From positions 15,855,501 to 15,919,500 of the forward strand of contig JAZHRO010000054.1 of NCBI GenBank assembly GCA_037157565.1: 64,000 nt of DNA, given 5' to 3'. Source of the DNA: Thalassia testudinum. Its lineage: Eukaryota > Streptophyta > Magnoliopsida > Alismatales > Hydrocharitaceae. The position numbers were made by a program, and so were the translations under genes. Positions 2,562 to 33,813 of this stretch are shown here, piece by piece (within the stretch, counting starts at the first letter, position 1; every line of letters begins with the position of its first letter). The notes under the pieces are model-generated. The model was not told where the DNA came from, made no database searches, and was given only the letters and a program-made list of their open reading frames with translations.

Positions 2562-2604
2562 GTCCCACATCGGTGGGAGATAAGCAAACACGCACGCATA
2601 AAGG
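2562..2604 (+). promoter_or_regulatory. snRNA-type promoter in LTR (USE + TATA, copy 1)
   Basis: GTCCCACATCG at 2562-2572 is a perfect match to the plant snRNA upstream sequence element. Exactly 24 bp later lies CATAAAGG (2597-2604), a TATA-like box. Plant U6 and U3 genes, transcribed by Pol III, use this short spacing, while Pol II snRNA genes have about ten more base pairs. Confidence 0.6.
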
Positions 2605-2626
2605 TTTTTTGTCACTTGGGCTTATC

Positions 2627-2815
2627 GCCTCAAGAACACCAAGGTGAGGTCCCACTCACCCACATAGACTCGACTCGACCTGCCTACTGTACACTCCTCG
2701 GTTGTGACCCCACGCCCGCAGCCCTGGACCCAAGCACGCGATCCGTATACCCGATTAGCCCAGCTATTTGAGAGAGGAGGAAGGCACAGAGAGAGCGTGG
2801 AAAGGGTGGGTTTTT
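2627..2815 (+). ncRNA. Predicted short LTR RNA (copy 1)
   Basis: The predicted start GCCT lies 23 bp after the TATA-like box. The core GGTGAGGTC (from 2643) can pair as GGTGAG/CTCACC around a short loop. The first T-run is TTTTT at 2811-2815, a possible Pol III terminator, giving an RNA of about 189 nt. No expression data are available. Confidence 0.4.
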
Positions 2816-3366
2816 CCCTCTGAAGTATATACCTTTGTGATCTCTAAAGAAAGGAAGAGAGGAGGAAGAGGCTGAAGCTAAGGCAGAGAAGAGAAAAGAA
2901 GTGGTCGTTCTTGAAGACGAGAACAAAAGAGAGTTTCGAAGAAAGCACTGCAGCAAAGCTTCAATTAAGTCATCTGATTTGAAAGTCAAACGTCTAATTA
3001 CTGTTGGATGATTTGGTTTATTTGAGATATTTGTGATGTATATCTAGAGGGCTTAGTTGGTGATTTAAATCAGTACTTTTGGCTTTTCTATTCTTTTTAT
3101 CCTAAGATATATTAATCTTCATTGAATATCTAATGTGCCAGATTAATATTCATTGAAATATCTTTATAGTGCTTCATTTATTGTGCTCATTTATATATTC
3201 ATTGAGATTAGCATGTGAATTCCTACTTGCTCCCTATGTTCGATCTCGAACTTCATTTATAGATTTTCGAGTTATAAATATTATTTGTTAAAAGATCAAT
3301 TGTGGATTTTGCACTACAATGATGATAACTTAATCTTAATCCTCTCTACATCCATTCAACACACTG

Positions 3367-4261
3367 CTCGACTGATTTGTGTCGTTGAGCCTACTTAATT
3401 GCTTGAGAGCCCAACTGTATATTGAGCCGGTTCCCGATTAAAGACGGGTATACTCTTGGCAGGTTATTGGCTGACCATGCAAAAATGTCTGCATTAGCCC
3501 TCAGTAGGAGGAATAGCTCGTGGATTTCGGCCCCAAACAGCTCGACCCCTATGTGAACCAGTTTATCAGTTGCATTAGGGTACAACTGAATGGCCATGGT
3601 TGAAGACCCAGGCTTCATTTCCTGCGTAGGCGGGCGTGGATCAAACTTCTCTTCCCCCATCTATGAGATTTGGGAGGGATTCTCTCCATTGAGCACTCAA
3701 GCTCAACGCGCAGCAATTCTCGGTCAGCGAACTGCTCTCCGTGGACAATCCTGATTCCACGTGGGAAGGGGAAAGTATGAACTAGAAGTACGATGAGGGG
3801 ATTGCCCAAAAAGCATGAGTCGTGGGGTGGTCCATAATACCTTCAAAAGCTGTCGTCATCCTCACCACTATGAAAGTGGCCGTTTTGTTGTGTTTATCTC
3901 CTTCGCATATTGACACTAGCAGGCTGATTTCTCCTTTAGGCATTACTTTATGGTTCCCAAACCCTACTACCGGCAAGGTTGGCAGGGACAAATGTTCCTC
4001 GCTGAGACCTAACTGCGTGAGAGTCTTGAGGAAGAGGACATCCATGGTGCTAACCTCATCTACAAGGAGATGGGGTTGTTAACACCCAGCCAGGAGGAGT
4101 GTTATTAACAAGGGATTTGTGAGGTCTATCGGATTTGACAAGGAGAAGAGCCTTGAGGTGGCTTGCTTGATGGAACTCATCTCTCCCCACTGCAAAAAGG
4201 GATACATCTCCCATATGGCCCTCTAAGGAGAAGGGGTGGCCCCTGAACCTCCCAGGGGGCC
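3367..4261 (-). pseudogene. Ty3/gypsy protease and linker fragment
   Basis: Minus-strand sequence holds the part of the polyprotein upstream of reverse transcriptase. At 3782-4080 a retropepsin-like block includes MDVLFLKTLTQLGL, where the expected catalytic DNGSSAD-type segment is degraded, and a following PKGEISLLV strand. At 3391-3660 the linker has the ADIFAWSANNLPRV signature that precedes the polymerase domain in Tat-like elements. At 4100-4261 the reading continues with several stops. The fragment is joined in sense to the reverse transcriptase at 1-815, with the solo LTR between. Stops and frame changes show it is dead. Confidence 0.85.
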
Positions 4262-4854
4262 TGTTGACGGAGCTTTTTAGGAGTTTAAATATGTCTCGTT
4301 GTAGTAAAGTCTCCTAAATCACTCAATCAACAAAGATAACTTATAAACTTAGATATCTATAAATGAAGTCCGAGGTCGAACACAGGGAGCAAATAGGAAT
4401 TCACGCGTTAATCTTCAATTAAAATATAAATGAGCACAGGAAATAAGCCGAGAATAATATTTCAATGAATAACACTACTCAAAATTGATATTCAATGATA
4501 AATATGAGTATTTCAAGAGCTTAGTGAAGCAAAAAGATGTCTAATACAAAATAATGGTGATTTAGATCACCAATTATTAGTATAAATATATGTATATCAA
4601 TTAATCATCTCAAATAAATGAACAGTACTTAGACATTCAAGTCAGACGACTTAAATGTTCTCTGCTACAGTACTCTTCTTCTTCAGTTGTCTTCTTCTCT
4701 TCTCTTAGATTCTTCTTCTTTCTTCCTTAACCCTTCTCTTCTTCTCAGAGGCACGACCCCTTCTTTTCCTTTCTTCTCTCTTCAAGCCTTCTCTTCCTTC
4801 AGATCTTCTTCCTTCTTTTCTCACAACGGCTAAGTGTCGAGAGCCCTGGAGAGC

Positions 4855-5041
4855 AAAACCCCCCATACCCTGCTCTCTCTTTCCTTTCCTTCTCTTATCT
4901 CTTAGAGGTTCGAGTAATCGGGTATACGGGTATGCGTACCTGGGTCTAGGGTTGCAGGCGTGGGTCGCAATTGAGGAGTGAGGCTAGTCGAGTCGAGTTA
5001 AGTGCGGGTGACTGGGGACCTCACCCCCATGTGTCAGAGGC
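4855..5041 (-). ncRNA. Predicted short LTR RNA (copy R)
   Basis: On the minus strand, GCCTC starts at 5041, 23 bp after the TATA-like box. It is followed by a GGGTGA/TCACCC hairpin and then the first T-run, TTTT at 4858-4855. The predicted length is 187 nt. Sequence prediction only. Confidence 0.4.
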
Positions 5042-5063
5042 AACACAACATTATCAGAAAAAT

Positions 5064-5106
5064 AATTTATGTGTGCTCAATGGTTCTTCTCCCACCGATG
5101 TGGGAC
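5064..5106 (-). promoter_or_regulatory. snRNA-type promoter in LTR (copy R)
   Basis: The minus strand reads GTCCCACATCG at 5106-5096, then 24 bp, then CATAAATT at 5071-5064. The architecture is identical to copy 1 although the spacer sequence differs. Confidence 0.6.
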
Positions 5107-5899
5107 TAAACACACGCCTCCTTCACGTTGTAGTTGCAGGTGATGCTTTCGTTCAATTGGAGCAGCTGTAGAGGGCATGGTCCTCAATTAATCACCTGGG
5201 AAGGTGCCTGGAAGTCACCCGCAACTCTTGGGTGTAACACCTGGGTCCTTTTGTAGCTTGGAGCTTGAAGAACGAAGGCGGCGACAATGGTGGCAGCGGT
5301 GTGACGGTGTGGAACCTAAAATCCAATAATACAGGCGCTAAGCCCCTATTAGAAAGCTCAGGAGCTTCACCTAGACTTGACGAAGGTGGTGAAGGTGGTC
5401 TCGTGGTCAGTGGAGGTGTGTGGCGAAGTAGTGAAGTCAAGAAGTGCATATGAAGATGGATTTATTTGGTGGATAGTTTGGGAGGTTGAGAGGCCCAATA
5501 AAGTTAGGGCTCTTAGTCGTGGGCGCACAGCGAAAGTTGTGAGGGTGTTGGCGAGGTGGTTGGATGTGTGTGGTGAGAGAATGACCTCACTGGGGAAGTG
5601 GTTGGAGCGTAAGAAGGTGACGGCGTGCGTGTGCATCGAGGGATGTTTTTGGGTTTTGGATAGAGGGATAAAACCTAATAACATAAAGAAACTAAACTAC
5701 CCTAATTAAATTGGACGAAAGGGGAGTTTTCCTTGCCGGAGATACACCGGACTTGGAGGAGATGAAATCTCTGGTAGGGGAGAAATGGCTAGGAAGATGT
5801 GGAAGAAGGCCCTCGCTGGTATTACAAGCGGTGGAGGAACTTGAGGAGGGTAGATCGACCAACTATGGTTTGTGACAGTCGACGAAGAATGTAGATAGG

Positions 5900-6632
5900 T
5901 GATACGTTTCTTACCTCAACTCAGTAATTAAGTTAATTTCACTTAATTAAAAGTAGAGAAAAGTAATTTAGGTTAACTCAAAATTGTGTCAGTTGTGTAG
6001 TATAGGGTTGAATTAACATAACATTTTAGATTTTTTTTACTAGTTGAGTCCAGATCGTTCGCTAGGACGTATAATTCATTCTAAATTCACTAGTTATTTT
6101 TTATTTTTCTTTATAAGTATAGGAGGTATATTAAGTTAATTTAAAAACATGGATTTTGCCAAATGATTTAAACTTTAAGGAATATACAAAATCCCATATG
6201 AATTCTAATTTATTCAAATGTTTTAAGGCAAAGAAAAGTTGATTTAGCTAGAACATGCCTTATTACAACAATTGCAAGTAAAAAGAAATTTTTCATATAG
6301 CAAGAAAAAAAACAAATTCTTCTTTTTATTCTTCAGCCTCTCTCTCTCTTTTCTTCTTCTTTCTTTCTATTTTTCTTTTATTTATCCTTTATCTTTTCTC
6401 TCTTTCTTTTATTACTCTCTTATTCTCTCGACCTCTCTTCTTTTGCTCCTGCCTTCTTCTTCCCTTAGTATTTCCTTAAGTAGCCTCCTCTTTAGTCTTC
6501 ATAGTGCCTGTTCCTTCTCTTTTCTTCAACTAAACCGGGTTTATTTTCCTTTTCAACCAAAAATTATTTTTTATTTGCAGTGAGGTCCTTTCGAGGATAC
6601 ACAGCACCCTGAGATCAGGGTGGGAACAGACC
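5900..6632 (-). mobile_element. Distal part of a very long LTR, minus strand
   Basis: This AT-rich stretch ends in a long pyrimidine tract (6320-6530), equivalent to the purine tract of the other long LTRs. It is probably the terminal part of the minus-strand LTR that begins at 15160 and was later split by two solo LTRs. The apparent terminus is TGATACG at 5900 (ATCA in minus sense). No gene is seen here. Confidence 0.5.
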
Positions 6633-6660
6633 TGTTACGAACGTGGCATCAGACGGGTTT

Positions 6661-7560
6661 TTAAGACGTCTGGGAAGTGGCCCAGACGTCTGGTAATAAA
6701 TTTTTGCGGCGTACGGGGTTGCGTCTGCGTGCCTGCGCGCGCAGACTGCACCCACCGCTCTCGTTCCTCTTTTCTTCTCTCTCTTCCTGTAGACGCGCCG
6801 CTCTCTTCTCTCTCTCCCCACGCGGCCTTATAAGAACACCCTCGCCCTCTCCCTCACCCTCATCTCCTCCGCCTTCCTCTTCTCCTTCTCCCTGCCAGTG
6901 CGAGAGCGCGAGCGAGTAAGCGGTGGCAACAGCGGCCGCGGCGAGTGTGCGGGAAGGAGGGTTGCGAGCGGAAGGGGAAGCTCGATCGCGAGGGTTCGAG
7001 CTTGCCGAGGCAGCTAGAGCCGGTCCGCGGGGGAGCGGCAGGCGTGGGGTGTTGCGGAGGGGCTGCTGCAGCTCGGGCAGCAGGCGGAAGGGGCGCAGCG
7101 CGGCCGTGCGTCGCGGGCGGAGAGCGAGTCGGGCCCTGGTTCTGGAAAATTTTCCAGAAGCAGACGTCTAGGCTTACGACCAGACGACGGTGAAGACGTC
7201 TGGAGGACTGTCCAGACGTCTGACAGGTAAGATATTTCTATCTTCTTCCTTTCTCGCGTGTACGGCTATGCAGCCGTCCGCCGCGACTTCATCTGCGCTT
7301 CGTCATGCTGAGAGCAGGAGTGTGTGTGCGCAGGTTGCACTCGGGAGGGCACGAGGGCTCGCCATCCCACGTAAATCAGACGTCTGGCTGCAGTGCCAAA
7401 CTACGGAGAGGACTTCCAGACGTCCGGGGTGACAATCGGATGTCTGGGAACCAAGCCAGACGTCCCAGCGGGCTTCTAGACGTCTGAAGGACTACGCAGA
7501 ATTAAGGTACGATCTGACCCACCTTTTAAGACGTCTGGAAGCGGTTCCAGACGTCTGATT
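6661..7560. repeat. Array of AGACGTCTGG-type palindromes in LTR A
   Basis: About a dozen matches or near matches to the palindrome CAGACGTCTG occur on both sides of the TATA box and around the possible intron. The core GACGTC is the C-box recognised by many plant bZIP factors. LTR B has a similar array at 9345-10250. Confidence 0.8.
7227..7333 (+). other. Possible LTR-encoded intron (LTR A)
   Basis: A consensus donor CAG/GTAAGA and an acceptor TGCGCAG/GTTGC lie 107 bp apart downstream of the TATA box. LTR B has the matching pair GAG/GTACGT and GTGCAG/GATTC, 105 bp apart (9909-10013), despite sequence divergence. Confidence 0.4.
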
Positions 7561-7866
7561 TTTGTCAGTTTCGTCGTTTTTGACCCGTTTAGGGCCCGTT
7601 CGAAGTCTGTTTTCTGCGTTTCGAGTTGCGTTCTTTACAGAATAAAATCCTCTACCCGTTTACAGTAATTGTATACCGTTCTGAGAAACTCCTTGTGTTT
7701 GATCCTCGTGTTAGGACCCCGTTCCGTTGCAGTCTTGGGGGTTGCGGAGGCGTGCGGGATTGCCAACCACGCCCCCAGTACTCCCGTTTTCGCTGGTAGA
7801 GTGACTTTTAAATTATTTAGTATAAATTGTTACAATTATGGAACAATTAATAGAGTCTAGGGCATT

Positions 7867-8010
7867 GCATGAATCCTAGGACTGAGAAACTAGATTGAAT
7901 GATAGATCCTAGGGTATTGCATGAATCCTAGGGCTGGAAAACTAGATTGAATGATAGATCGTAGGGTGCGGCATGAATCCTAGGACTGGGAAACTAGTGG
8001 AATATATAAA
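7867..8010. repeat. 52-bp tandem repeat in LTR A
   Basis: GCATGAATCCTAGG recurs at 7867, 7919 and 7971, a 52-bp period with about 2.7 copies. LTR B carries two related units near 10556 and 10610. Confidence 0.8.
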
Positions 8011-9201
8011 TATTGCAGTCTTGGAACAGTGGAAAGGAAATAATAGCTGCCTGTAAATTAATATCTGCACGTTATGAATGAATAAGAATGATTGAGAATA
8101 TGGGTTGTATGAACGTAAAACTGGAACAGTGAAACCTACAATGGCCAACAAAAAGAACACGAACCCTACGGGGAATTAGGAGTAGAACTCCTGGAAAGGA
8201 GAATAGAAGGGAACTGAGAAAGTGAAACGTGGAAGTGTGTTGTCTCTCAGGTACGTGGTACCAAAGAGAGCACTAGCTACCCTACGGGCCCCGGGGTTCT
8301 GCTAGCTCTCCTACACCAACTTGTTAGGCCCACTGGGCAAACCAGGGTAGTCAGGCAAGGGTGCGCGGACTGTGGAGGGGTTGGACCCCTGTTACTGAGA
8401 GGGCTCTGCCCTATACTGGTTCCGTGCTATGCTTTGGGTGCACCCGTTAACAGAAACGACTGACCGCGTGCCAGTGCGGGGTAGCTACCTGTGCGCTTAT
8501 CGCGCGTGCCGTAGTCACCGTTACGTCTGTCAGCGACCTTGGGGTGGTTGACTGAGGGTAGGACCACCATGGGGGACTCTCCCGGCCAGGAGAGCACCAC
8601 GTGTTACTCCTACTTTTCGGAAAAGACTGCAATCAATATCGTTCCCACGAGGAACATTCGAGATCAAGTGAAGGATCTGAGAAATAAATCAATCGTGAAA
8701 TAATAGAAAGACGTAAATACAGAAAGTAAAAATATAACAGCTATTGTACACTCTACTGCTTCTTTAGCTTTTAGTTGCCACACTACTCAGCGTTTCGCTG
8801 ATGTGTTACCCTCGTTACTTTTCAGGACCAGGTGTTGAGCAGCCAGGGTCAGCGGCTGCAGAGGACGCTGGGCCTAGTAGGGTCCAGTAGAGTTACCCGC
8901 AGTTCTTTTTGTACTTTTCTTCCACTGTAGTGAGTAGTTTCCTTGTTACTCCTTGTACTTCTTTATTGTAAGATTCATGTTATGTACATATTTGTTGTTC
9001 TACTGTTGTGGTGGTGTATACTGTAGTAGTTCCTTTTCTTATTGTTGTATTTTGTTACTGCTAGTTATATTCATGATGAATGTGGTTTATTTTACTGCTC
9101 TTTTGGTTACTTCCTCGTTGGACGACTAGGTCTTGGGATTAGTCGAGTCGGTCCGATTCTCATGTCTCGTAGGGACTCGAGAATCGGGTCGTTACAAGAC
9201 C

Positions 9202-9312
9202 CTACTCGGTCCTCGCCTGATTTTAATTAAGGTTCGATTTCGGTTTATTTTTTGGTTCATAGTTTCGAGCCAATCCGGCTCAACCAAGCCAAACCAGTTC
9301 ACGCCTCCCAGG
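9202..9312 (-). mobile_element. Sliver of host LTR between two solo LTRs
   Basis: This 111-bp remnant of the host sequence lies between the two chromovirus solo LTRs. It resembles the GC-richer, GGTTTGGCTTGG-type block of the long LTR in minus orientation. Confidence 0.45.
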
Positions 9313-12094
9313 TGTTGAGACCCGTGCCTTCAAAGCTCTTTAAGACATCTGGGACTTGGGTCAGACGTCTGGAAATCAATTTTTATGTGCGTACGACCTC
9401 GAGTCTACGCGCGTGCCGTGCACAGACTTAGCCCAGCCTCGTTCTCTTTCTTCTTCCCTCACCGAATGTAGAGCCCTACCCCCCCCCCCCCCCCCCCCCC
9501 GCGCTTACAAATACCCTCCTCCTCTCCCTCACGCCACCCCACTCCCATCCACCTTCTCCTTTCTCCAGCGAGCGAGAGCAAGCGCGGCGAGTTGCAACCG
9601 AGCGCAGCAGCGGAGAGGAGAGGGGCAGTGTGAGAAGGAGAGGCGAGGAGAGCACGTGAGCTCGCAAGAGAGCTCATCGGAGAAGCTCGCGGCCGGTCGA
9701 GCGTGCGCGAGGCGGAGTGTTGTGCCAGGGAGGTTTCCCCCGACGCTGCTGCATCTAGAGCAGTGGACGAGTGAGCACGACGCGGCCGCGCGTAACAGGA
9801 AGAAGACGAAGGAGATTCTGATTCTGGGATTTTTCCAAGAATCAGACGTCTGGACCTACATCCAGATGACGCGAATGATGTCTGGAGAAAGCTCTAGACG
9901 ACTGAGAGGTACGTCCTGCGCCTTATACCTCCCTTTGCGGATACAACCATGCAGGCCGTTCCGTCGAGGCTCTGATGTGTGCTGTGTTAAGAAGATTTGC
10001 GTTGCGCGTGCAGGATTCACTTCGAGAAGGCGCGGGACACTCCCTCCCACGCGGTTCAGACGTCTAGGCAAGGCACCAGACGGCGAAGAGCGTCTCCAGA
10101 CGTCTGGACAGGTGATCGGACGTCTGGAATCTGGACAGGTGATCGGACGTCTAGAACTAGGTCCAGATGGTTCAGCAGGATCCCTGGACGTCTGAGGAGC
10201 AGCACAGAGTGAGGTATAGTTTTGGACTCTCTTTAAGACGTCTGATTTGAGTCAGGATCGTCGTTTTTGACCCGTTTAGGGTCCGTTTGAGGTTCGATTT
10301 TCGTGTTTAAGATTCCGTTCTTCTTTGTATAAGTTCCTCTACTTGTTGGAATGCATTTTTATCATGTTCTGAGTGGTTCCTTGTAGTTGATCCTTATGTT
10401 AGGACCTCGTTCTATTGCGGATTTGGGGGTTGCGGAGGCGCGTGGACCTGTCGATCAAGCCCCCATTACTCCTGATTTTGCAAGTAGAGTGGCTTCCCTT
10501 AGTTAATTACAAACATAAATGCATATCTGGAATAAATGGTAGATCCTAGGGTTTGGCATGAATCGTAGGACCAGAAACACTAGATTGAATGATAAATCCT
10601 AGGGTATGGCATGAATTCTAGGACTAGAAACACAGGAACGATTGTATTGAATGCCTGAATTGCAGTCTTGGATGTGTAAATAGAATAATAACAATTGCCT
10701 ATAATTGGATAACAGCTGCCTGTGAAATGTAGAGTACTGTTGTTAGTAACTGTTACATGTAATTCCTGTTGTTTGCAATTAAATACGAGCAGCTTGTATA
10801 TAAATTGGAAAAGAAAGATTGAAAGTTGGAAACACGTGCTATATGCGAATAAACCTGAAATGATGAAACCTAGTATGGCTTGTCCTAAGAAACATGAGCA
10901 TGAACCAAACGGGGAATTAGCTGTAGAGCTCCTGGAAATAAATAGAATGGAACTGGAAAGGTGAATGGGGAAGTGAGCCGGCCCTTGAGTACGGAGTACC
11001 AAGGAGAGTGACTGTCCCCCTGCTTAGTACAGAGCGGAGCTAGCCGCCTTACGGTTGGGACCCGGGGTTAGTACTGGCCACTTTGTACCGACTTTTTGGC
11101 CCTCGCGTACACAGTACCGGGGAGAGCTACTAGTGTAGGGAGAGAGCTAGCCACCCCACGGGGCTCGAGGTTCACCTAGCTGTCCTACACCGACTTGTTA
11201 GGCCCACTGGGCAAACCAGGGTAGTCAGGCGAGGGTATGCGGACTGTAGAGGGGGGAGACCCCTATTTGGTTACTGTGGAGGGGCTAGACCCCTGTTACT
11301 GAGAGGGCTATGCCCTATACTCGTTCCATGATGTGCATTGGGCGCACCCATTAACGGAAACGACTGACCGCGTGCCAGTGCGGGGTAGCTACCCGTGCGT
11401 TTATCGCGCGTGCAGTAGTCACCGTTATGCCTGTTAGCGACCTTGGGGTGGTTGACTGAGTGTAGGATCACCACAGGGGACTCTTCTGGCCAGGAGAGCA
11501 CCATGTGCTACTTCTATTCTTCGGAAAAGACTGCAATCAAGATTGTTCCCACGATGAACATTCGAGATCAAGAAAAAGACCTGATAAATAAACCAAGTGA
11601 TAAAAGAAAGAATAATTAGTTAAATAAAGAAAGAAATTGAAACAACAGCTACCTGTCCACCTTTACGATTTTTAGTTAGCTGGTTGCCACTCTACTCAGT
11701 GTTCGCTGATTTCGTGTACTCATAACCTTTTTCAGGTCCAGGTGTTGAACAGCCAGAGCCTACGGCTGTAGAAGGTGCTGAGCCCAGTAGAGCCCAATAG
11801 TGTACCTTTTCGTTGTACCGTTCTGTTGTAGTAAGTATTTTGTTACACTTCTGTACTCTTTTGTTGTATCTTTATATTCCTGTACCTGTTTGAATTCTCT
11901 ACTGTTGTGGTGGTGTGTACAGTAGTAGTTACTTCTTTACTGCTGTACTTTTGTTACTGTTAGTTGCTTGCATGGTGAATGTGGTTTATTTTACTACTTT
12001 TTGGTTACTTTCTTGTTGGACGACTGGGTCTTGGGATCAATCGGGTCGGCTCGGTTCTCGTGTCTTATAGGGATTCGGGAACCGAGTCGTAACA
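9313..12094 (+). mobile_element. Solo chromovirus-type LTR B
   Basis: This second LTR of the LTR A family is about 2782 bp long, starts TGTTGAGACCC and ends GTCGTAACA. CAGG lies on both sides (9309-9312 and 12095-12098); the expected fifth base is missing on one side, so I read it as a 5-bp TSD (CCAGG) with one base lost. It has a TATA-like CTTACAAATACC near 9505 just after a 20-C run, an AGACGTCTGG palindrome array, a possible 105-bp intron and the same conserved 3' half as LTR A. A 279-codon open frame at 9356-10195 is not preserved in LTR A and is discounted. Confidence 0.8.
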
Positions 12095-15000
12095 CAGGCC
12101 TCGCCCTCCCAAGGCCAACGCATTCGCACACCCACTTGGGCGCACACCCGCAGGCACACATGCCCGCACACACACACGCATGCTCAAATGTTCAAATGTT
12201 CAGATCGCGGCAAGCACTTGACAACTGGCATGGCTATACAACAAATTAGTTTTATTCCAAGGCGGGCGCTCATGTCTTACCGATGTGGGACTATGCCCCC
12301 CCCTCCAGACCTGACTTCAATTGATGAAATCTCCCTACTCATAGCTCCAAATCAAGCGACTCAAAGCTTGATAGAAAGCTCTAAGGTAGATCTACAAGGT
12401 TGCAAGGTCAATTTTAAGTTTAGAGGATGATTTCCTATTCGATTTGAAGAGTGAAACAAGGGGTTCCTACAGGTTTTATTGCTTGGAAATAGAGTTAATC
12501 TTCACAGAGTCCACAGATGGACTCTCCTCTCTCAACTAAGGGTCTAAATAGGTTCTATAGGTTATTCCGCGGCTACAGGTAGAGGTTCTGAGCTCTTAGA
12601 GGCTTCAGGTAACACAAAGAAGCTTCAAGCTTCTCTAAAAGCTTCAGAGACAATAATCAGACATGAGAAAGTTGTAACAGACAGCTAAAGGCATTCTCAG
12701 TCGATTGGAATAATCTCTAAGGGATATAACAGATTGATCTAGGTAGGATTTCACTTCAAATCTCATCAAAATGCTACTGTTATCCGTTTGGATTCGAAAA
12801 CAACCCAAACTGATAGGTTGTGAATTCCAACAAATTAACTCATCTGAGCTCATTTTAATCTCTTTCAGATCATTCAAAAGAATCTCAGAATCCATGTAAG
12901 CTTCTCAAATCATCAAATCATGCTTAGAATCAGAATCTCCTTCCCAGGTTTGACTGCAAAGCTTCGAAATTTGACTTTCTGATTAATGCTTTCTTACAAG
13001 GAATTAAGGCCTCAAATAGCATCTCTTCAATCTCAGGAATTTGTTCAGACCCTCAGATATTTGAACTAAGGTTTCCAGGGTTCTAAGCTTGTCGCCTGAG
13101 CTCCAAAAGGTGTTTGATCGTCAGAACAAATAAGAGATTGATACACTGTTTGGATCACAGAAATGAACTCAGAGTAAAGCATTGAAGCTTCCAGAACTCT
13201 TAAACGTAACTTTAACCTAACTGACAAACTTCTCCAACTCTGCTGGAGTTGGAGAAGACAAAGATTTATCTAAATCTCCAGACACTTAATCCTCAAATAA
13301 ACATCCTCAGAGCAATCAGTGATCATTAAATCATTGATCTGGAGCTTTTCACTAAATTCCCCAGGCTGAAGAACAGTTTTGACTTACTAGAGCTTGCCGG
13401 AGCTCCGGTGAGTCTAGAAAAAGTGCAAACTGTGCACAAAATGGCGAATTATGCCATTTTTGAATTAAAAAGGTTCCTGAGGTTGCAAGGAACCTCAGGG
13501 ACTCAATTAATTCTCCATTTGCTTGTTAGAATTAAGGTTTAACAATGAATTCCATTTCTTAAAGGATCTGTGTTGGTTAATGCTCAGGACTTGTTTTCCC
13601 ACTCAATTGAGTGGTCAAAACAAGTCAACAAATATTTACGATCATAAATATATATAATTAATAGTTTTAACTGCTCCTGAGCCGCCATGGACAGCGAGCT
13701 CAGGAGCTTAATTACAATTTGGGCGTTTAAGTTATATGTGGTAATTCTATAAATTAAAGTGTCAATTAGGGTCCTCAGGTTGTGAATAAGTGATGGAGAA
13801 TCCTATGAAGGTGATTCTAAACTCAGCTCCTGTCGCCATGGACAACAATAGTAGTCGGTGGAGGTGAAGTTGATTTAGGCGATAAAGTGATCAATTGAGT
13901 GTTTAAATGGGTTAGAAATGATTATGAGGGTTTAAGGAAGGTGGACAATGAGTTAAAAAGACGAAATAAGGACTTTGGCGAGCTCAAGGAGCTCGTCGGA
14001 GTCGGAGAAGATGAAATGTAAAATCTAGAATTACAACTAAACTACCTACCTAACTACCCTACTTCTACTCCTAATCTATTGTTACCTGGGCGAAGGGGTA
14101 ATAGGGTTCCGCCGAAGGCTAATAACGGACGACGAAATCAGAGGGTGTAAGAGGAAGATCTCCGGCGGGCGGATATGAGGTGAAGCAGAGGACTCCTTAG
14201 TCAGCGTATGTATCCAGAGATGCGGCTGACCTCGTCGGATCTCCTCGGCTAATCAAGATGGATGGAGGAAGTCGGAGAGTGGTGTGGAAGGTCACCAGAG
14301 TTACAGAGAGAATAGCCTATTGAAGTTGGCTGCAGTGTTAGAAGAGGGAAGGGAGACAACTTGCCAGAAATCAGAGGGGTGAGGGGGTATTTAAGTGGTT
14401 GGCGACGAAGAGAATGGCAAGGTCTGGACGAAGAAGGAACTTGAGGAGCTTAACCTCCAGCGTCGACTCCGACGACGGTGAGGTTAACTCCCGCCAGAAA
14501 TTAGGATTTCTGATTAATCCAGACCGGTGGATGAAAATGAAGTGGTGAGCCCAAGCTCGAAGAGCTTGGAGAAAGAAGGTTGATGTCGGCAGGGCGGTGA
14601 TCGTGCGGTGGCGGCACTCTCCATCGCCAGCTATCTAAACAGATGAAAAAGAAGAAGAAGACAAAAAGGGACCTAAATGTAATGAAACTTAAGGACCTAT
14701 GTGAAACTTAAGGATCCGATTGCAATGAGTTTTAGGAACCAAAATGTAAACTCAAGTTTTGAAGGTTTATTTTAACTTGGATCTTTTTCAACTTTTCATA
14801 TATGTTAGTAAATAAGGTAAATATTATGTTTTCACCTTGAATTTACATTTTTGATCTTTTTAAGTTAATTTATTAAATTAGGTAAAGTTACTTAAGTTAT
14901 TATATACTTAGGTATACATTATATTTAAGTTACTTAACTTATTAATTAAGGAATTGATTAATAAGATTTCGAGTCCAATTATTAATTAAATTGTTAATAA

Positions 15001-20604: not shown

Positions 20605-20606
20605 AT

Positions 20607-23310: not shown

Positions 23311-23353
23311 GTCCCACCTCGGAGGTGTATGGGTGCACGCCCATACATAAATT
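23311..23353 (+). promoter_or_regulatory. snRNA-type promoter in LTR (copy 4)
   Basis: GTCCCACCTCG at 23311-23321 differs from the USE consensus at one base. A 24-bp spacer follows, then CATAAATT at 23346-23353. Confidence 0.55.
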
Positions 23354-23375
23354 GAAAAAGTGCTATCGGTTGGTT

Positions 23376-23611
23376 GCCTCCGATAGCATTGGGGTGAGGT
23401 CTCTCACCTACTCACCGGGTCTCGTCCACGACATGCCCACGCGGATCTGACCAAACTCGACTTCCCACTCCTGTGCACTCCTCGTGCACTACCCACACCG
23501 ATGCGCCTGGACCCGGGCACGTGACCCGACCCGATTACCCGGCTCTGGGAGAGCTTACCAAAGAGAGATTCAGAGAGAGAGAGACGCGGGGAAGGGGTAG
23601 GGGTAGGTTTT
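23376..23611 (+). ncRNA. Predicted short LTR RNA (copy 4)
   Basis: The predicted start is GCCTCC at 23376, 23 bp after the TATA-like box. The GGGGTGAGGTC core can fold as GGTGAG/CTCACC. The first T4 run is at 23608-23611, giving about 236 nt. Immediately upstream, TGCTATCGG and CCGATAGCA form a perfect inverted repeat that spans the predicted start. Confidence 0.4.
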
Positions 23612-24257: not shown

Positions 24258-25550
24258 CCTATAATTAGTATCGATGGAACTCATCTTTATGGAAAGTATA
24301 AGCACAAGCTATTGGTTGCATGTAGTATGGATGAGGGCAATCACATAGTTCCTCTTACCTTTGCATTGGTCGATGAAAAAAGGGAAGAGACTTGATTGTG
24401 GTTTCTTATGCGACTCAAAGACCTGATCATTCGTGGTAGAGAAGGCCTTATATGCATTATTTCAAACAGACATGATGGGATTAGGGCTACAATTACAAAT
24501 CCAGATGTTGGATGCTTCCTCCATTAGTCATCCATAGGTATTGTATGAGTCACGTGGCAAGCAACTTCAATGATGTGTTCAAGAACAATGCTCTAAAGAA
24601 GCTTGTGACAATTGTTGTGCTTCAAACATATGACCTTAAGTGCCAACATTATTTAGAGAAACTTCATGAATTAGATTATATTGTTCTTGGCTGGTTTGAA
24701 AGGCAATTATTACCACCTGATTTGTGGACTGAGGCTTATGATGGAGGGTATAGATATGGCTATATAACAACCAACATGAGCGAAAGTTATAATGTTGTTC
24801 TAAAATATGCAAGGTCATTACCTATTGCTACACTACTGAAGAAGACTCCTTATAACTGGGTTAATTACTTTAGAGAACGACAAGCTGAGGCTCAATGCAG
24901 GGTGAATAAAGGGAAAATTTACACTACATGGGCCAAGAAAAACTCGAGATGTGGCGAGAAGTTGCCCGGAGGCATAGCGTTGAAGTCTTTCAATGACACC
25001 CTGAGATGATATTTGAGGCTGTGACGGGTGAACGACCCACTGAATCTGACATCAAGGGTGGGAAGACATTGAGAGTGAATCTTGACTTGAGAATTTGTTC
25101 ATGTAATAAGTGGTAGACTTGGAAGATCCCATGCTCCCATGGATGCGCAGCGATGGCTCACAGGAATCTAAATGTCGATGATTACATGTCACATTTCTAT
25201 ACATGGGAGTAACAACTTTATTGCTATGAGGAGGGTTTCTACCCGGTTGCAGATAAGAAGTTGTGGATATGGCAGCCTTCATATTTTTCAAGGATTATTC
25301 CTGATCTAGAAAGGAAACGTAAAAAGGGATGTCCAAAATCAACTCACATACATAATATAATGGACTTAATTGAGACGTCACGACCAAATAATTGTAGCAA
25401 GTGTGGTGTACTTAGTCACACCAGGTGCAATTGCAGGGGGATAATTCCTTTTGAGTCAAGAAATGCAGAAAAAGCAGTGAATCCATCCATATCTGCTGAC
25501 AATCCCGATCCATCACGATTCCCAAGTAAAAGATGATGTAAAGATTCAAA
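24258..25550 (+). pseudogene. MULE transposase catalytic and SWIM region
   Basis: The catalytic core begins with SIDGTHLYGKYKHKLL (first Asp, near 24273). A second motif reads ISNRHDGI where an SDRH-type motif is expected, so the second catalytic Asp appears replaced by Asn. An open segment at 24512-25009 contains NMSESYNVVLKYARSLP, the conserved segment near the third acidic residue. After a frame change come a SWIM zinc finger (CSCNKW...PCSHGCAA, 25095-25155) and a CCHC knuckle (CSKCGVLSHTRCNC, near 25395). Stops and frameshifts occur throughout. It is the continuation of 21131-21470, split by the solo LTR. Confidence 0.88.
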
Positions 25551-26800
25551 AGTACCCAACAATCGTAATAAATGTCGATTGCATGGAGGGGTCAGTCACA
25601 AGAGGAGACATTGTCGTAATCTACCTAGTACGTAAGATTTTACGTGATGTTTGTTTGGTAAAACTTCTTGACTGATCCAAATGCACATAATTTAACACGG
25701 TTGACTGCATTATGCTATATTTTAATTGCTCAAGTATTTTATGAGCTTAACAACTCAATTTGAAAACCTGGCTTGAAGGTCACTCTTTTTTGCATATAAT
25801 TTCTTTCAAATGAAAATACCATTTCTGTTCAAGAAATGATAAAAGTTGCTGAAAAAGTTGATTCCTCAAGGTACAAAATGACTTAAATTGAACTGATGGT
25901 TGATTGGATATAATGAGGAACGGATCTACTCTCTGTGTTTAACATAAAAGGCTAAAAGAACACAAGCCAAATAACAGTTGAACATAATAAATTGAATCTG
26001 AAATGTTGATTGTTTGATCGGTTTTCCCATAGTTGAGAGTCATGCCCAAACATGTAACTGTTGAACCATGTGTGAAGTGAAAGGGGATAAAAATGGTTGA
26101 GATTTCACTTATTATTTAAACAAATCAGAGCCACAAACCTAAATAAAATCAGTAAATTTTGTTTAAATAAAATGGAGGCAGCAGATGTAGAAGAAATTAA
26201 AGATATTCCTATACCCTTTCAACCACAATTCAATTTAAAATTAAGATATATTGGTGGATGGCTAGTTATCAAATCCATAATGCATTTTGTAGGAGGTATG
26301 CTAGTTGCTCCAAACCTCTTAGATTTTCTCAATATGTAGCTATTTTTACCACTGTATTGTTCTCTCAATATGCTAGTTGCTCCATTTATGCATTTATGTT
26401 GGAATTTAGAACTTATCATTGATAACTATTATATGTATGCTTAAGAGTATAAATTTAGGGTCATGCGTTCCTGGGTGACGGGGAGTAAATTTCTTCACAC
26501 ATGTACAAAGAAGTTTGCATGAAGAAAAAAAGGAAGAACTCATCCTCCGTATATCATTTTTACCGTTTATTTGTAGCATGTTCTTCCATTGCATATTGAG
26601 AGTGATTTCTTAGGTGTTCATTTCCATTACATTTTTGTAGATGGATTGGGACTAGTAGATCATAGTGTTTTATAAGGTTAGGATAGACACTGGTCACATT
26701 TTATTTGGGAGGACCTTGTGAGTTAATTACAGTTTTATTGTAATGATTTATTCATTTTTAATGAAAATATTAATCATTTGTAGTTTTGTTCTTTTTAGGA
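25551..26800. other. Intergenic, no gene recognised
   Basis: This AT-rich DNA separates the MULE transposase from the PMD remnant. I see no conserved coding block, RNA gene or clear repeat terminus. It may be MULE internal sequence. Confidence 0.5.
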
Positions 26801-28690
26801 TAATACTTGGCTTAAGTGTCACAGACGTGAGGCTGTATTATGTCACAACCAGTCCCACGAGAGGATACAACCATATGTCGAGAAGGTGGGGTTATGACCC
26901 ATCCTATTGCTTCCTTTTATTTATCAGGATTGGTAGCTAATCACATCTTTGGTGGAGAGATGGCGATCGGAGACACACACCTTCCATATGGGACATGGGG
27001 AAATAACAATCACATTGGAGGATGTCGCTATTATCATGGGACTACTTATTGATGGAGATGTCGTCAAGGTAGACTATTTACTTAATGCATCCAGCCCCTT
27101 ATCTATTTATTAGTTGCATGTTTTTTGATAGTGGTTGAAACAACGACCAGACAAATATTTTTAAAGCATGTTAATTCGTAAAGCTCGCAGGCAATGCTAG
27201 CAGATGATGCTGGCTGCTGCTAGCACCACCTGAAAAATCAAAATGTGGTGGTGGTGGTGTGTATGGATATAAATTTTATAAATCAATGTGTATGGGATTT
27301 AGCAAAACACAACGCATGCCCAATCCTGAGGCATCCCTACTTTCATTGCTCATGTTACCAGATTACACTCTCTACATACGCAAGGAGATGCTCAATCCAT
27401 TTCAAGCACAAAACTGTTTTCTTTTACTATCAGCATGCATAATCCAAGAAATATGTGTTTCTGTTTTCTGAAATGATCCAACATTTTGGTAGGCTTATTC
27501 AACAAAATCTTTGCATGTGAGATTTTATTTCACGTTCATGCTATAGCATCAGAAAAAGCAACCAGTGTATCGTATCTAAATCTCTGGAAAAAAACAAAAA
27601 TAAATCCCGCTCATGTCCTTCCATAGAATTGAGGCCACATGTGTTCCCATGATACTGACGTGTTTTGAGAAAGTACCCAACCAGGCTTATTCCCACACAG
27701 AAGGATACATCATCAGAAGGTCCACAGGCATTGCAATTTTTTGCTTCATTTACCTGTTATGTATGCTTACAGATTTTTTTTTTCCTTCATTGAAACAGAT
27801 GCTACGAGACAAAATTGATTACATATGTTCCAATAGTTGTTGGGACGCCAACCACCTAACTTGAAAGGATCTCGAGTGAAGTTGCGTTAGCTGTAACAAA
27901 ATTTTGGAGAGTTACCAGACAATGAGACAATGTTGCAGTAGGTACGAGCATACATCTTGCAAATACTATGAGCAATCATCTTCCCCAACAATACGACACA
28001 TTGGTTTCACTTACATATTGCCACTGCTCCAGGATTTTGATGTCGTCGAATGGTTCAGTTAGGGATCTACATGTTTGGCGTTCCTAAAGAGGTTTTGTAA
28101 ATTTATTTATTTCATTTCTAAGTCACTATTTATATGTTAAGAATGACTTATAGTATATCCTTGAAATGTAGGAATCTATGTAGAGCCGCTCACAATGTCA
28201 CCGAACAAATCGGTGTGGGAGTGGTTCCCCCATATCACTCCTATAATACAGCAGCAACCATAGTGGAATGGGAGGCCATTGACGCGTCGCTGGAGTGCAT
28301 CGTTCAAGGTTACGGACCATCCGATGCACGTCGTGCGTCCATATCGGGATGCTTTCGACATACAGGCTCCTGATCAGGTAACAAATTTCATTCGCATTAT
28401 TTAAGTATGTTAATTAAGTTATCATCCGACCTTCACTTTTTTTAGATTGTTTGGAGGCCATATATCGAGGATATTGTAGCATAGCTTCCTCCGTATTGCT
28501 TAGTTGATCGGAAGATTTGGCACGCTCGTGTGCCATCGGTGCACTTCCATATGGTGGAGCATCACTTCACATATTGAGTTATGTTCCAGTTCGGTGGTCA
28601 CCAAGGTCCCCCAACAGATTGTGATACTGATAAAGCTTTACATGTCATTGACCTTAGAAAAGAGAATGACATTGACTGGAGATTAGAGCA
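26800..28690 (+). pseudogene. Plant mobile domain (PMD, MAIN-like) pseudogene
   Basis: Three separated blocks match the PMD found in MAIN/MAIL1 proteins and in transposon-borne relatives. Block 1 (about 26825-27070) has a RIQPYVEKVGL-like start and [20 protein letters not shown]. Block 2 (about 28170-28370) has SPNKSVWEWFPH and HPMHVVRPYRDAF-like segments. Block 3 (about 28445-28690) has VWRPYIEDI, LPPYCLVDRKIWHA, VHFHMVEHHF and CDTDKALHVIDLRKEN. Stops (for example after HHFTY) and frame changes interrupt it. The blocks are probably separated by introns. It lies in the same direction as the MULE transposase, as expected if the MULE carried it. It ends where an LTR begins at 28697. Confidence 0.85.
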
Positions 28691-28696
28691 TGTAAC

Positions 28697-29392
28697 TGAT
28701 AAGAGACTCATCATGGCTCCTAATTACCACTAATTAGTTAGTTTCCCTAGCTATTAACTACAAATACATTAAATACATGGTTAATTATACTATAGGGGTT
28801 AAATTACCAAGGTCCTGCAAAATAAGTTAAAAATACATAATTTAATATTAATTAATCATAATAATAATTTAATTAATAATTAGGACTTAAAATAATAATA
28901 ATTGGCTATATAAAAAGTATTTTATTTAACTTAATTAATTTAAAGACCTAAGTAAGTAATTAACTTAATTAAACTAATCATTTAAATAAAAATAGCTAAA
29001 AAGAGAAAAAATGTAATTTCAAGGCATAAATATAATATTTATCTAATTTATGATTATATGTAAAAAATTTAAAAATAAATAAATAAAAATAAGCCTTAAA
29101 ACTCACTATTTATGTTTAGGTACTTAACTTCTTTTTCAATTGAGTCCTTTTTATTTTCAATCAGGTTCTTTTATTGCACTTATACCCTTGTGTACATCTT
29201 CTTCATCTTCATCTTCAACCGTGGATGGTTGAGGATGACCAGTTTCCGTGCCACCGATTCACTATCGATCCTACTTCAGAAAACCTTCACCATTACCGTT
29301 CACCCTTTCCTCATCCGATGGATTGGATTACCAAGAAATCCTATTTGACCCAGGCTTTTAACTTCCGACACCAATGAGTACAATGAACCTAG
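28697..29392 (+). mobile_element. 5' part of a long LTR (copy 7)
   Basis: It begins TGATAAGAGACTCATCA and resembles the start of the minus-strand LTR at 15160, including an AT-rich first 400 bp. It is cut by the LTR that starts at 29393. The fragment at 33150-34622 could be its distal half, but I could not prove this. Confidence 0.6.
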
Positions 29393-31943
29393 TGATGGTA
29401 ACACCATCATTAGCCATAACTAACTTGAATTAGTTGGAATCAATAGACAAATGCTCCTGAATGTCGCCTGAGAGCCGTAATTTCGCTCAGATCCGTTTTG
29501 AGAAGAGAACATTAAAACATGGTTAAATCTGTAGTTTAAAAATCATATCATAAATGCAAAGTAACCATGGGATTTGTCAGGGGTTAATTGAAGGTCAAGT
29601 GAGCATTAAAGTTTAATAAGTGGGTCCATATAGATAAAATAGGTTTTCACGCACTCCAAGAACCAAAACAACACACAAAACCTTAATTTCAGACCCGCTT
29701 GAATTGAAGAGGTTCTGATCAGGATAAAATTTATCTAAAACTCCCAAAATTTGTAGAAAAATATTCTAAGAGGTTTAGTACCCTTGGTTTGACCATTTAA
29801 ATCCATTTTGACCTTAGACAAAGCTTCAGACGGGATTTTATCCTAATTTGGACTTTTGTGCAAATTACCCTATCAAATACAATCAAAACTCAAATCTAAC
29901 TTCACCTTTAGATTCCTTGGGTCTAAATTAAGTTAGGGTCAAAATTTGGGCCCACTTAGTTTGCAATATAATCCCTTAAAACTCTATTTTTTACACCTAA
30001 GGCCCTAATTTTCAAATTCCTTGCAATTAGGCCCCTAACTTCTCATCATTTTCTTCAAATGAGTTCCTACCACCATTAACATGTGAACGTATCCGCAGCC
30101 GACCTTCAAACGAGGAGATCTCTTTAATTCCTCAGCCAAATCCTCCCAAAATTAGAAGGAACAATCTTTAGAAGATCCTCATTTGGTTGAATCACTTCAG
30201 GGATTCCAAATCACACCATGGAGCTCAAGCAAAGCCCTCGAAATCCGCGAGGGAACCCAAATCAAATCGCGACTAATTCCCTTGTTTGAGCTCAAATTTG
30301 AGCTCTATATAAGCTCTAGATCATACTGTTGTTCTTCTTAGTTCGGTTTAGCCTAAAAAAAAGATCTTCCTCCTCTTCTCTGGCCAGCTTCAACCATGAC
30401 TTCGACAGCCTCCTCGCTCTCCCTCATCAGAGTCTCCAACGGACAAATTGGAGGCACTATGGCCTTCCACTTTTCTTCGCAACCAAAACCCATCAAAGTT
30501 TAGCCGCCTTTGACCCTTTCCTCGCTGTCGCTCTCCCATCGGAGCCTTCATCTCCTCCGATGCCGACCAATCAAAGCTGACGCGGAGCTCCCTCCTTTTC
30601 GTCCGTAGATAAGCTCTCTCTCTCTCTCTCTCTCTCTAGTGTCTCCCTAACCTTCTATCTTTCTAAATCAACCACTGAATCATGCTCTCCCCTCTTGTCT
30701 TCTCCACGATCAACACACCTCCGATGAGGCCATTACGCCTCCACACCGCTCCAAACTCCATGCCACCACCTCCATTAGCATCGCCACACCACCTTCAAAA
30801 GCCCTCTCCCTATTTCGCCTTCCAGCCACTCTACTCCCCCTCCGAACAACCCATCCTTTGTCCATCATCTCCGACACTATCTGGCATCTACATGCTTCCA
30901 ATCTCCTTGCTATCACCACCATTCACTTCCTCATCTCACGACGAGTCTCCTAAACCTACTAATTGGGCCAAAAGGCAGTTCTTGTGCATTACAAGTATTC
31001 GCCGACGAGCTTCATGTCTCTGGCGTCTTCTCCGATGTCGTGCATCATCATTCGGCCATCCTTCGACCTTTCTACCACCCCAAGCAATTACGAAACTATC
31101 TAGAGAGCACACCAGCAGCTCCAGCTGACAAAGCAAGGCCACCAACAACTCCAATTAGGAAACAACATCTTGTTGCTGTGAACGCAAGAAGACACATGAG
31201 ACAGTAGTCCCATATCGTGTGGGTAAAAGCATTCGCAATGGTACAAAAGGGAATTGTGATGAGGGCTTATCGCCTCTTCACTGGGGGTGAGGTCCTCGTA
31301 CTGCACTCTCTCTCACACCTCACTCACCACACACGCTGGTGAGCCTGGTCCCCTATAGTCGATCCGATTACCCGATTGAGGATCCGATTAGGGCCTAGAG
31401 ATGCGTGCATGACCGCTTAACACTTAGCATCTCAAGAGGCTTTGTGCTGTGTTGGTGCCTTGAGTTGTGATAACTTAAGTCATCTAGGGGTTATACCCGA
31501 CATCTGATATTAGTTGAGGCACTATGGAGTCATTTGATATCTATTCTGGTGTGGCTAATTGAGATATATGTGGTTCTAAACACTGTTGGGAAATTTGAAC
31601 TACGGGATGTATGCTTAAGTTGAAGGAGCTAAGTGGTGATCTAAATCACCATTATTTTTGGGGTTTTCTTCTATTCTTTTTATCTCGTTGTTCTTGAGAT
31701 ACATTGGTTTATCATTGAATATATTTCTGAGTAGTTTATTCATTGAATATCTTTAATTGTGATTTATTGATTGTGCTCATTATTTTTATATCACGATTAG
31801 TGTGTAAATTCCATATTTGCTCCTTACGAACGACCTCAGACTCAATTTCCTGATTTCAAGCACTCTATAAATTTAAATGTTGTAGCATTTTCGTTGGTCG
31901 TACTACAACGTGCATTCCTAAAACTTAACAAAAGCATGCAACA
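29393..31943 (+). mobile_element. 5' LTR of Athila/Tat-like element (copy 5)
   Basis: A 2551-bp LTR runs from TGATGGTAACACCATCA to ATGCAACA, followed after three bases by a primer-binding site, which makes it a 5' LTR. It shares most blocks with the solo LTR at 816-3361: U3 spacer, TATA region (CTATATAAGC near 30303), an snRNA-type promoter (31207-31249) and the terminal CTCCTTACGAACGACCTC block. A (CT)n microsatellite lies at 30614-30639. The short plus-strand open frames (for example 30682-31128) are proline/serine-rich artefacts. Confidence 0.85.
31207..31249 (+). promoter_or_regulatory. snRNA-type promoter in LTR (copy 5)
   Basis: GTCCCATATCG at 31207-31217 differs from the USE at one base (C to T). 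A 24-bp spacer is followed by TACAAAAG at 31242-31249. GCCTC starts at 31272, again 23 bp downstream, followed by GGGGGTGAGGTCC. The next T4+ run is only near 31657, so a short terminated RNA is less likely from this copy. Confidence 0.5.
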
Positions 31944-33149
31944 TTTTAGTGCCGTTGCCGGAGAACAATGCACAATTCATCATTAATCGTATCTTATTTG
32001 ATTGAGCTTATTACTAACTTGCCATATTTGTTTTGCTGTGATTTTGCAAGGTATATCACAAGAAGATCTTCCGCACAATCAACCACTATAGGGGCAGGTA
32101 AAATTTTTTCTTCTTCCCTCATTAACCTCCTAATCCTAGGAAGAGAAAAAAGAAACAAATGAATTAGGATCCACTTGTCTTATTTTTCTAGTAACTATTA
32201 CTTACAGGCAAAAGTTTCCTAATTTGTGAACTTGATTTATACCTGATTGAAGATTGAGACAATTTGATTAGAGATCCCTATTCTTATTTCTTGTACCTAT
32301 TAGGGATTTATGCTTAAATTCTCAACATCTTGGAATACTCACTTTCTTGTTTGGGTCCAAGGTGTTACATTTGAGATCAAATTTGACTTGAAATAGAGTC
32401 AATTAGGGTTTCCACTTTAGGATTGTGAAGTGTTAGTACACATTTTCCTGCATTAAAGGAAATTGACATTCCCGCATTTGTGTACTACCTAAGCTCTTGG
32501 TTGAAAAGATTTATTCAAGAAAACACTAAAATCAAGGGTCTAAATTCACTTGAACCCTAAAATTTTGGACCAATAATCTGAGAGTCAATTCAGATTGATT
32601 TTGGGTCTTGACCCAAATTTTACCCTCAAACTTTAGGGCAGGTTAGGTGAAGTTGGTCCACTCTGTGGATCAATCGACCTTTAATTTAGGTCACAAATTG
32701 AATCAATTTCTAAATCAAGTGAAATTTAAGACACAAATTAGGACTAAAATTGGTAGACTTAAGATCTCAATTCATACATTCCGGTCTACCTGGAATTGTA
32801 GTGACAAGGAAGATTGGGTGGGAGAAACCCTGTAACCCATCGGGATGCTTTACCGTGCAAGGGCCTTTGCGGGGCTCTCCCTTCCAGGCTATCCAAATAA
32901 TTCTCAGGTGTGTGAATTTCTGATTCGGAGGTATCATCCGCCTTGAAACAGCCTTAGTCATCCAAAAATCTTTGGGTGCCTTGATTGGGTCCAATAAACA
33001 TCTAGTCTCTCATATATTCTCTAGAGCACATACATAGGAAAGGTCCTTAGGTCTGACCTAGAGGCCTCTATTAGAGCTGATCTTCTATGGGAAAATCTGA
33101 TTTGATCTAATCAAATCGATTTGAACCTAAATTTGATACGACTGCCACC
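31944..33149 (+). mobile_element. PBS and leader of Athila/Tat-like element
   Basis: TAGTGCCGTTGCCGG at 31947-31961 is a degraded form of the TGGCGCCGTTGCCGG primer-binding site region of Athila/Tat elements. Its two differences are C-to-T/G-to-A changes. The following kilobase is non-coding leader-like sequence. From about 32800 to 33149 I see no recognisable feature. Confidence 0.6.
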
Positions 33150-33770
33150 CTGCTCCGGCCCTTTCGTCCCTGTAACTAGGTCAGAACTACTCCCCATCAC
33201 CCCCTCTTTCTTTTCCTCACTGTCTTTCATTCGATTAAACCCTCGACCGCTCCTGTCCACCGTCACCTTCTTCGTCTCTGGCCACCCTTCGGCGAGACGC
33301 TCCCATCTCTCCGCCGCCCCACACACCTCGCCGACCCTCGCATAACCTCCGCCTCATCACACTGAACAACCTCCGCCCACCCACTGCCGCTCTACACCCA
33401 CTCATCGCTCCCCCGAACACACCCACACCTCCAGTCACAGGGCGACCTAGGCACGCACGCCTAGGCCGCCTCACGACCTGCTGCACCTCTCACCACCTTC
33501 GCCGCACCACGGCGAAGGTCCCCCGCTGATCTGATTAAGCTGAGAGGCCCTTTTCGTGTCTGGCAGTTTCGACGCCCGACCGCCATAGATGCTGCATTGA
33601 AGCAGCTCCACGCACGCTCCAGGCTTCAGAACTCCAAGGCTCCAGGTGCTGCGAGGTCGGGAAGGTAGTGCGAAGGCAGCTAACCCAGCAATCGACGCGA
33701 ATAGAGCCTGCAGCTGAGAAAGTGAAGCTGCGGTCTGCTGCGCACGCGCGCGAGAAGAGCACTGAAGATA

Positions 33771-33813
33771 GTCCCACATCGTGAGTTTACTAAACCCCGC
33801 AGTAGTATAAATT
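33771..33813 (+). promoter_or_regulatory. snRNA-type promoter in LTR (copy 6)
   Basis: GTCCCACATCG at 33771-33781 is a perfect USE. The spacer is 24 bp and the TATA box, TATAAATT at 33806-33813, is the best of the set. Confidence 0.65.

Follow-up and report, generated by a model that had tools for sequence, protein, structure and literature searches.

Apparent snRNA-type (type 3) Pol III units with a fixed USE-TATA spacing in the LTRs of retrotransposons of Thalassia testudinum

Why should the long terminal repeats (LTRs) of a retrotransposon carry, beside a putative RNA polymerase II (Pol II) promoter, the two promoter elements of plant small nuclear RNA (snRNA) genes at a fixed distance from one another? 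The question is raised by a stretch of 64,000 nucleotides from the seagrass Thalassia testudinum (assembly GCA_037157565.1, contig JAZHRO010000054.1, positions 15,855,501 to 15,919,500, forward strand; hereafter the window), in which an upstream sequence element (USE) is followed, in six LTR copies, by 24 bp and a TATA-like box. These LTRs belong to two families, which we call A and B, and probably hold an apparently complete unit of the snRNA-type (type 3) RNA polymerase III (Pol III) class beside the putative Pol II promoter. As we picture it, the unit would open with the USE, 24 bp, and the TATA box; a predicted transcription start (+1), about 65 bp past the first base of the USE, would lead into a structured RNA, mostly 175-290 nt long, that closes with a run of thymines (T-run; T4 and T5 denote four and five thymines). 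Pol III would start at the predicted +1 and stop at the T-run.

The initial annotation of the window had described six USE + 24 bp + TATA-like sites and assigned them to a single LTR family. All six are where it placed them: the USE is exact (GTCCCACATCG) at 2562 (+), 5106 (-), 12291 (-) and 33771 (+), and has the variants GTCCCACCTCG at 23311 (+) and GTCCCATATCG at 31207 (+), while the box 24 bp past it reads CATAAA (2562, 5106, 23311), AATAAA (12291), TACAAA (31207), or TATAAA (33771). Among 22 USE-like sites in the window (two mismatches at most), exactly these six show TATAAA, with one mismatch at most, 24 bp downstream, against a chance expectation of 0.05 such sites (mean of 40 first-order Markov windows). 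The single family did not hold up: five of the sites align as copies of one LTR family (family A), and the site at 12291 lies in another (family B), this copy being homologous to a second family-B stretch (L029) over -2499 to +189 and interrupted 195 bp downstream by another LTR element. The features in the window are as follows.

1675..1684, + strand: upstream Pol II-type TATA of copy A1 (CCTATAAAAG), exact, 887 bp before the USE
2562..2572, + strand: USE of copy A1 (GTCCCACATCG), sequence match
2597..2602, + strand: TATA-like box CATAAA of copy A1, 24 bp from the USE
2627..2815, + strand: predicted RNA of copy A1, beginning where host U6 would place +1 (offset 65 from the start of the USE) and ending with the T5 run at 2811-2815
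4855..5041, - strand: predicted RNA of copy A2, from +1 to a T4 run
5066..5071, - strand: TATA-like box CATAAA of copy A2, 24 bp from the USE
5096..5106, - strand: USE of copy A2 (GTCCCACATCG), sequence match
12096..12226, - strand: predicted RNA of the family-B copy, start only, interrupted by another LTR element from ~12095
12251..12256, - strand: TATA-like box AATAAA of the family-B copy, 24 bp from the USE
12281..12291, - strand: USE of the family-B copy (GTCCCACATCG), sequence match
23311..23321, + strand: USE of copy A3 (GTCCCACCTCG), sequence match
23346..23351, + strand: TATA-like box CATAAA of copy A3, 24 bp from the USE
23376..23611, + strand: predicted RNA of copy A3, from +1 to a T4 run
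29393..31943 (limits approximate), + strand: LTR of copy A4, followed by a tRNA-Asp-type primer-binding site with 3 mismatches
31207..31217, + strand: USE of copy A4 (GTCCCATATCG), sequence match
31242..31247, + strand: TATA-like box TACAAA of copy A4, 24 bp from the USE, in a copy without the T-run block
33771..33781, + strand: USE of copy A5 (GTCCCACATCG), sequence match
33806..33811, + strand: TATA box TATAAA of copy A5, 24 bp from the USE
33836..34077, + strand: predicted RNA of copy A5, from +1 to a T4 run

We searched the window's own assembly (4.26 Gb in 237 contigs) for further copies; all copies sampled in this study are from the window or from the first places of one contig (C1). Five family-A elements with both LTRs were found (P1 to P5), with LTRs of 2.6-2.75 kb each; the LTRs start with TGATGAGAGCC, except for the 5′ copy of P3, and end with AACA in four of the five elements, and the second LTR of P4 is interrupted by an insertion. 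The two LTRs of an element share 93.97-99.56% identity (one intact element has 99.56%), and the LTR-to-LTR period is ~7.1 kb in three elements, 10.0 kb in one, and 10.95 kb in one; in P5, the USE lies ~1,836 bp from the LTR start. Directly after the LTR, all five elements contain a tRNA-Asp-type primer-binding site, TTTTGGCGCCGTTGCCGGGG (three exact, two with 1-2 mismatches). Over all family-A stretches, the site is exact in P1, P2, P5, and L039 and has 1-3 mismatches in P3, P4, L041, and the window copy at 31207; in the remaining ones none was seen within 3 kb, or the stretch ended before it. The three open reading frames (ORFs) searched, of four listed for the 10.95-kb family-A element (within L019), encode gag, aspartyl protease, reverse transcriptase (RT), and RNase H domains, and the two ORFs searched, of three in a 7.1-kb family-A element (L025), gave no Pfam domain. 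The best 120 hits in a similarity listing for an element's RT have 54-68% identity; the named hits are plants, with up to 68% identity for that RT/RNase H frame and at best 62% for the RT frame in the window. Family A is probably an Athila-type Ty3/gypsy LTR retrotransposon, like Athila in its long LTRs and in its primer-binding motif TGGCGCCGTTGCCGGGG, which we take to be of tRNA-Asp type and linked to Athila. The Athila label of family B hangs on one of eight copies (L031), which has the site with 2 mismatches, 1,106 bp after the USE; none was seen in the other seven family-B stretches.

The 24-bp spacing holds far beyond the window. TCCCACATCG followed by 20-30 bp and TATA has 20,414 matches in the genome, compared with 124 for a reversed-pattern control, and among 100 listed places the spacing is 24 in 80, 26 in 14, 23 in two, 29 in two, 25 in one, and 30 in one; in most of the 14 places at 26 the letters are TTTATA, so that the AT box itself begins at 24. 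Evidence for the spacing peak comes from this range of 20-30 bp together with a sample chosen without reference to USE or TATA. The probe for that sample was a 17-mer lying past the predicted +1 (21,269 genome matches, 0 for the control), and of the 100 places listed for it the first 40 were taken with none skipped; the 17-mer catches only part of family A, and the window copy at 2562 is without it. The USE is present in 40 of these 40 copies (27 exact, 8 with one mismatch, 5 with two), and the best TATAAA-like position is 24 in 38 of them (13 exact, 24 with one mismatch, 1 with two); the other two hold TTTATA from position 24 on, which moves their best score to 26. In this sample from one contig, the spacing is therefore not spread around 24. 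Comparison of 19 non-redundant copies of the 40 revealed 1.79 bits per column for TA plus USE and 1.46 for the TATA hexamer, vs 0.65 for the flank and 0.60 for the spacer: USE and TATA are conserved far above their surroundings in the LTR, and the spacers are as variable as the flanks (mean pairwise spacer identity 0.41, minimum 0.08).

As a yardstick for the polymerase class we utilized nine U6 loci (the best 9 of 48 matches) and four U2 loci (the best 4 of 37) of the same genome, with spacings counted by eye. Six of the nine U6 loci have a recognizable USE, starting at -64/-65 in five and at -61 in one (three are without USE), and 23-25 bp separate it from an AT-rich box in five of them, the sixth being without a clear box. 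In all four U2 loci, by comparison, the USE starts at -75, -75, -77, and -79, and 31-32 bp separate it from the box. The LTR spacing of 24 bp thus falls inside the host U6 range and 7-8 bp below the host U2 range. In addition, 33 of 35 family-A copies have a conserved GCCT or near variant at offset 65 from the first base of the USE (offset 64 in the other two); host U6 would begin at this point, whereas the host U2 start lies 10-14 bp farther on. Since both measures match host U6 and not U2, the unit has the geometry of the genome's Pol III class; in plants, the USE lies one helical turn nearer the TATA box in U6/U3 genes than in Pol II genes, according to PMC9845283. Separately from the LTR units, a different sequence (in L033, around 3126) has the same USE but places TATAAATA 29 bp from it, closer to what host U2 (Pol II) shows; other repeat types may pair the USE with different spacings. 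We also noticed an inverted repeat across the predicted +1, ~15-45 bp after the TATA box, clearest in 23311, 31207, and 33771, with arms that differ between copies; a hairpin over the predicted +1 is not claimed, since across 22 copies the advantage of own over swapped arms was weak (p=0.019).

The putative Pol II promoter lies farther 5′ in the LTR. CCTATAAAAG is among the 23 best-conserved blocks listed in 15 family-A LTRs, and TATAWA is found at -880 to -904 in 12 of the 15. Among the family-A copies of the window, the one at 2562 holds CCTATAAAAG exactly, those at 31207 and 23311 differ from it at two positions, and the other two, with 3-4 mismatches, show no recognizable version. Of the eight family-B copies inspected, three have CTATAAATA ~2.1 kb before the USE and a fourth has CTATAAATG at -1547; one of the eight extends no more than 1.55 kb upstream. 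The proposal of a second, snRNA-type promoter about 900 bp downstream of a Pol II TATA box is thus supported, at the level of sequence, by the spacing, the conservation, and the host U6 match. A Pol II-type TATA in this position (~900 bp before the USE in family A) would start the genomic RNA, and the USE-TATA unit would therefore fall inside that RNA and be copied into new LTRs.

Downstream of the predicted +1, a T-run recurs at a conserved position in both families. Of 22 non-redundant family-A copies, 19 have a AGGTTTTG-type block as their first T4 (in a 150-300 bp window); the three misses are 31207 (first T4 at +383), a stretch ending after 175 bp, and a copy with the block at +144. A second family-A sample (the next 20 listed 17-mer places) has the block as first T4 in 19 of 20, at +229 to +248, and a T4 at +54 in the remaining copy. 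In family B, a T4-T6 run at +234 to +287 is the first T4 in all seven distinct readable copies, the window copy being truncated. Potential RNA structures were examined in alignments of 7 family-B and 19 family-A sequences (three of the 22 family-A copies were left out). A terminal stem of 10 bp, shortly before the family-B T-run, has two-sided changes in 10 of 10 pairs; over the whole family-B structure, 88.0% of cells pair, and of 500 shuffles none reaches the paired percentage or the covariation score, and 6 reach the number of pair types. In family A, 6 pairs of a 7-pair hairpin show changes on both sides; taking the two family-A helices together, none of 500 shuffles attains their paired percentage or their covariation score. 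We read the covarying stems and the conserved T-run as signs of a possible small Pol III RNA. In Rfam, one family-A and one family-B unit had no match, and a scan of the window gave nothing above the gathering score (best 26.2 bits vs 70). As a further observation, the predicted RNAs of both families often hold TGGTCCC, and a GA-rich tract follows the unit, pointing to a possible shared origin.

Several observations weigh against a Pol III unit. The copy at 31207 is without the T-run block, and the family-A T-run is mostly T4 (T5 in 2 of 22 copies), vs T5-T9 in seven host U6 loci. The LTR box, TATAAATT, resembles the U2 box TATAAATA more than the U6 boxes TTTATTAAT and TTAATAAATATA. The structures were predicted on the same alignments that were used for counting, and the count of pairs with two-sided changes in the family-A helices is matched by 51 of 500 shuffles. 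Families A and B may share ancestry in this region. Avoidance of T4 was dropped as a proof of Pol III, since A4 is absent too before the family-A T-run (T4: 0 observed vs 5.4-6.0 expected; A4: none vs 2.7-10.6 expected). Finally, scarcity of indels is not by itself unique to the promoter: the 22-copy family-A alignment has 4 indel events from the USE to +75, 30 in -75 to 0, and 31 in +75 to +150, and just 1 in -150 to -75. Most of these 22 copies were originally found through the USE-TATA pattern, so the counts are partly selected. A coding cause for the indel-poor upstream block was considered and dropped, as neither codon periodicity nor a frame open in every copy was seen.

The U2-like letters of the box and the short family-A T-run would both fit a second Pol II start of the LTR, assisted by SNAPc and giving a shorter capped leader, with the T-run and the stems as leader features; LTRs with two TATA boxes are known, as in BARE (in the available part of PMC3485330). 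We consider this explanation unlikely, since the spacing is in the host U6 range and 7-8 bp under that of host U2, the GCCT stands at the host U6 start and 10-14 bp short of the host U2 start, and 12 of 15 copies already have a Pol II-type TATA ~900 bp before the USE. Less probable still, and in our judgment doubtful, is that the USE and TATA form a docking site for SNAPc and TBP (a boundary, or open chromatin) from which no defined RNA is made, the downstream block serving the leader of the genomic RNA in packaging or dimerization. The covarying stems would indeed also sit in a genomic RNA begun upstream, but the TATA box, the +1 region, and the distance from USE to +1 are retained too, beyond what docking needs, and the T-run is at a conserved place in both families. 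Constant spacing among the six window sites alone is weak evidence for constraint, because family-A copies have changed little in length, and it is the genome sample that makes the case. That common descent without constraint, with few indels keeping the spacing and a chance match to the USE, accounts for the pattern is very improbable, for although the five family-A copies of the window show few net length changes over about -590 to +99 and the -150 to -75 block has its single event, the spacers of two copies can be as little as 0.08 identical with USE and TATA still in place, the element is kept in 40 of 40 sampled copies, and indels are frequent past +75.

We return to a type 3 Pol III unit as the preferred explanation. 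A promoter of this type is external to its own transcript, and should therefore be lost on retrotransposition; an LTR with two promoters would explain its retention, since the USE and TATA would be part of the genomic RNA begun upstream and be reverse transcribed with it, so that the gene-external promoter could outlast retrotransposition. It is about an even call whether each LTR of these full-size elements holds a functional type 3 Pol III gene for a structured RNA of its own (~175-290 nt), kept mobile by the upstream Pol II promoter and amounting to >10,000 genes in this genome. The likeliest roles would be that of a short leader copy acting in trans on packaging, dimerization, or silencing, or else Pol III occupancy by which the LTR is held open.

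Similar to plant type 3 (U6/U3) promoters, the unit has the USE (RTCCCACATCG), a short spacing within the range of the genome's own U6 genes, and a TATA box near -30, with a T-run at its predicted end that may serve as terminator. Unlike them, it sits in an LTR, in a predicted >10,000 copies, its TATA letters and short family-A T-run differ from those of host U6, and two units had no Rfam match. Pol III promoters within LTRs have been reported for the TRIMp3 elements Cassandra (5S), Helenus (tRNA), and Ajax (5S) (PMC10886601, PMC7215508), which are short and non-autonomous, at most 1,263 bp long, with 5S- or tRNA-derived promoters (PMC10886601, in the available text); the Pol III promoters in LTRs described so far in these sources thus belong to very short elements whose promoters were taken from 5S or tRNA genes. 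Family A is like them in having a (predicted) Pol III-type promoter within the LTR of a retrotransposon, and falls outside the short, non-autonomous, 5S- or tRNA-derived type: its promoter is gene-external (USE and TATA) and accompanied by a Pol II-type TATA, its LTRs are 2.6-2.75 kb long, and one element of 10.9 kb codes for gag, protease, RT, and RNase H. The terms “snRNA,” “type 3,” and “Athila” are absent from the available text of PMC10886601. Thus, LTR-borne 5S- and tRNA-type Pol III promoters are already known, whereas an LTR with a USE or an snRNA-type promoter, or an Athila LTR with a USE-TATA unit, was not found in the literature searched by title or abstract, with subscription journals mostly outside its coverage. 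Relatives of the unit were likewise sought in two sequence collections: viral_contigs gave seven chance-like matches, none resembling the unit (0 with a fuller pattern), and genome_contigs gave 0.

These results suggest a mobile element that would have a small-RNA gene in each of many copies. Such an RNA, if made, would represent a new class among the small RNAs encoded by retrotransposons. The copies could then compete for SNAPc and Pol III of the host, could confuse the annotation of U6 promoters, and could offer many natural promoter variants in which the 24-bp spacing is kept.

Other repeats were observed alongside the LTR units. Two related LTR-like repeats (with starts TGTTACGACTCGG and TGTAACGACCCG) stand back to back in the window from 12095 to ~6660 (reverse strand), between the copies at 12291 and 5106, with only ~140 bp separating their aligned parts. 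An open frame at 24485-25009 (forward strand), which has no Pfam match at E 0.1, presumably resembles a MULE transposase. Elsewhere in the genome, four identical family-B matches are spaced ~52.7 kb apart at G000:C1:6026982-6185014, like a large tandem duplication.

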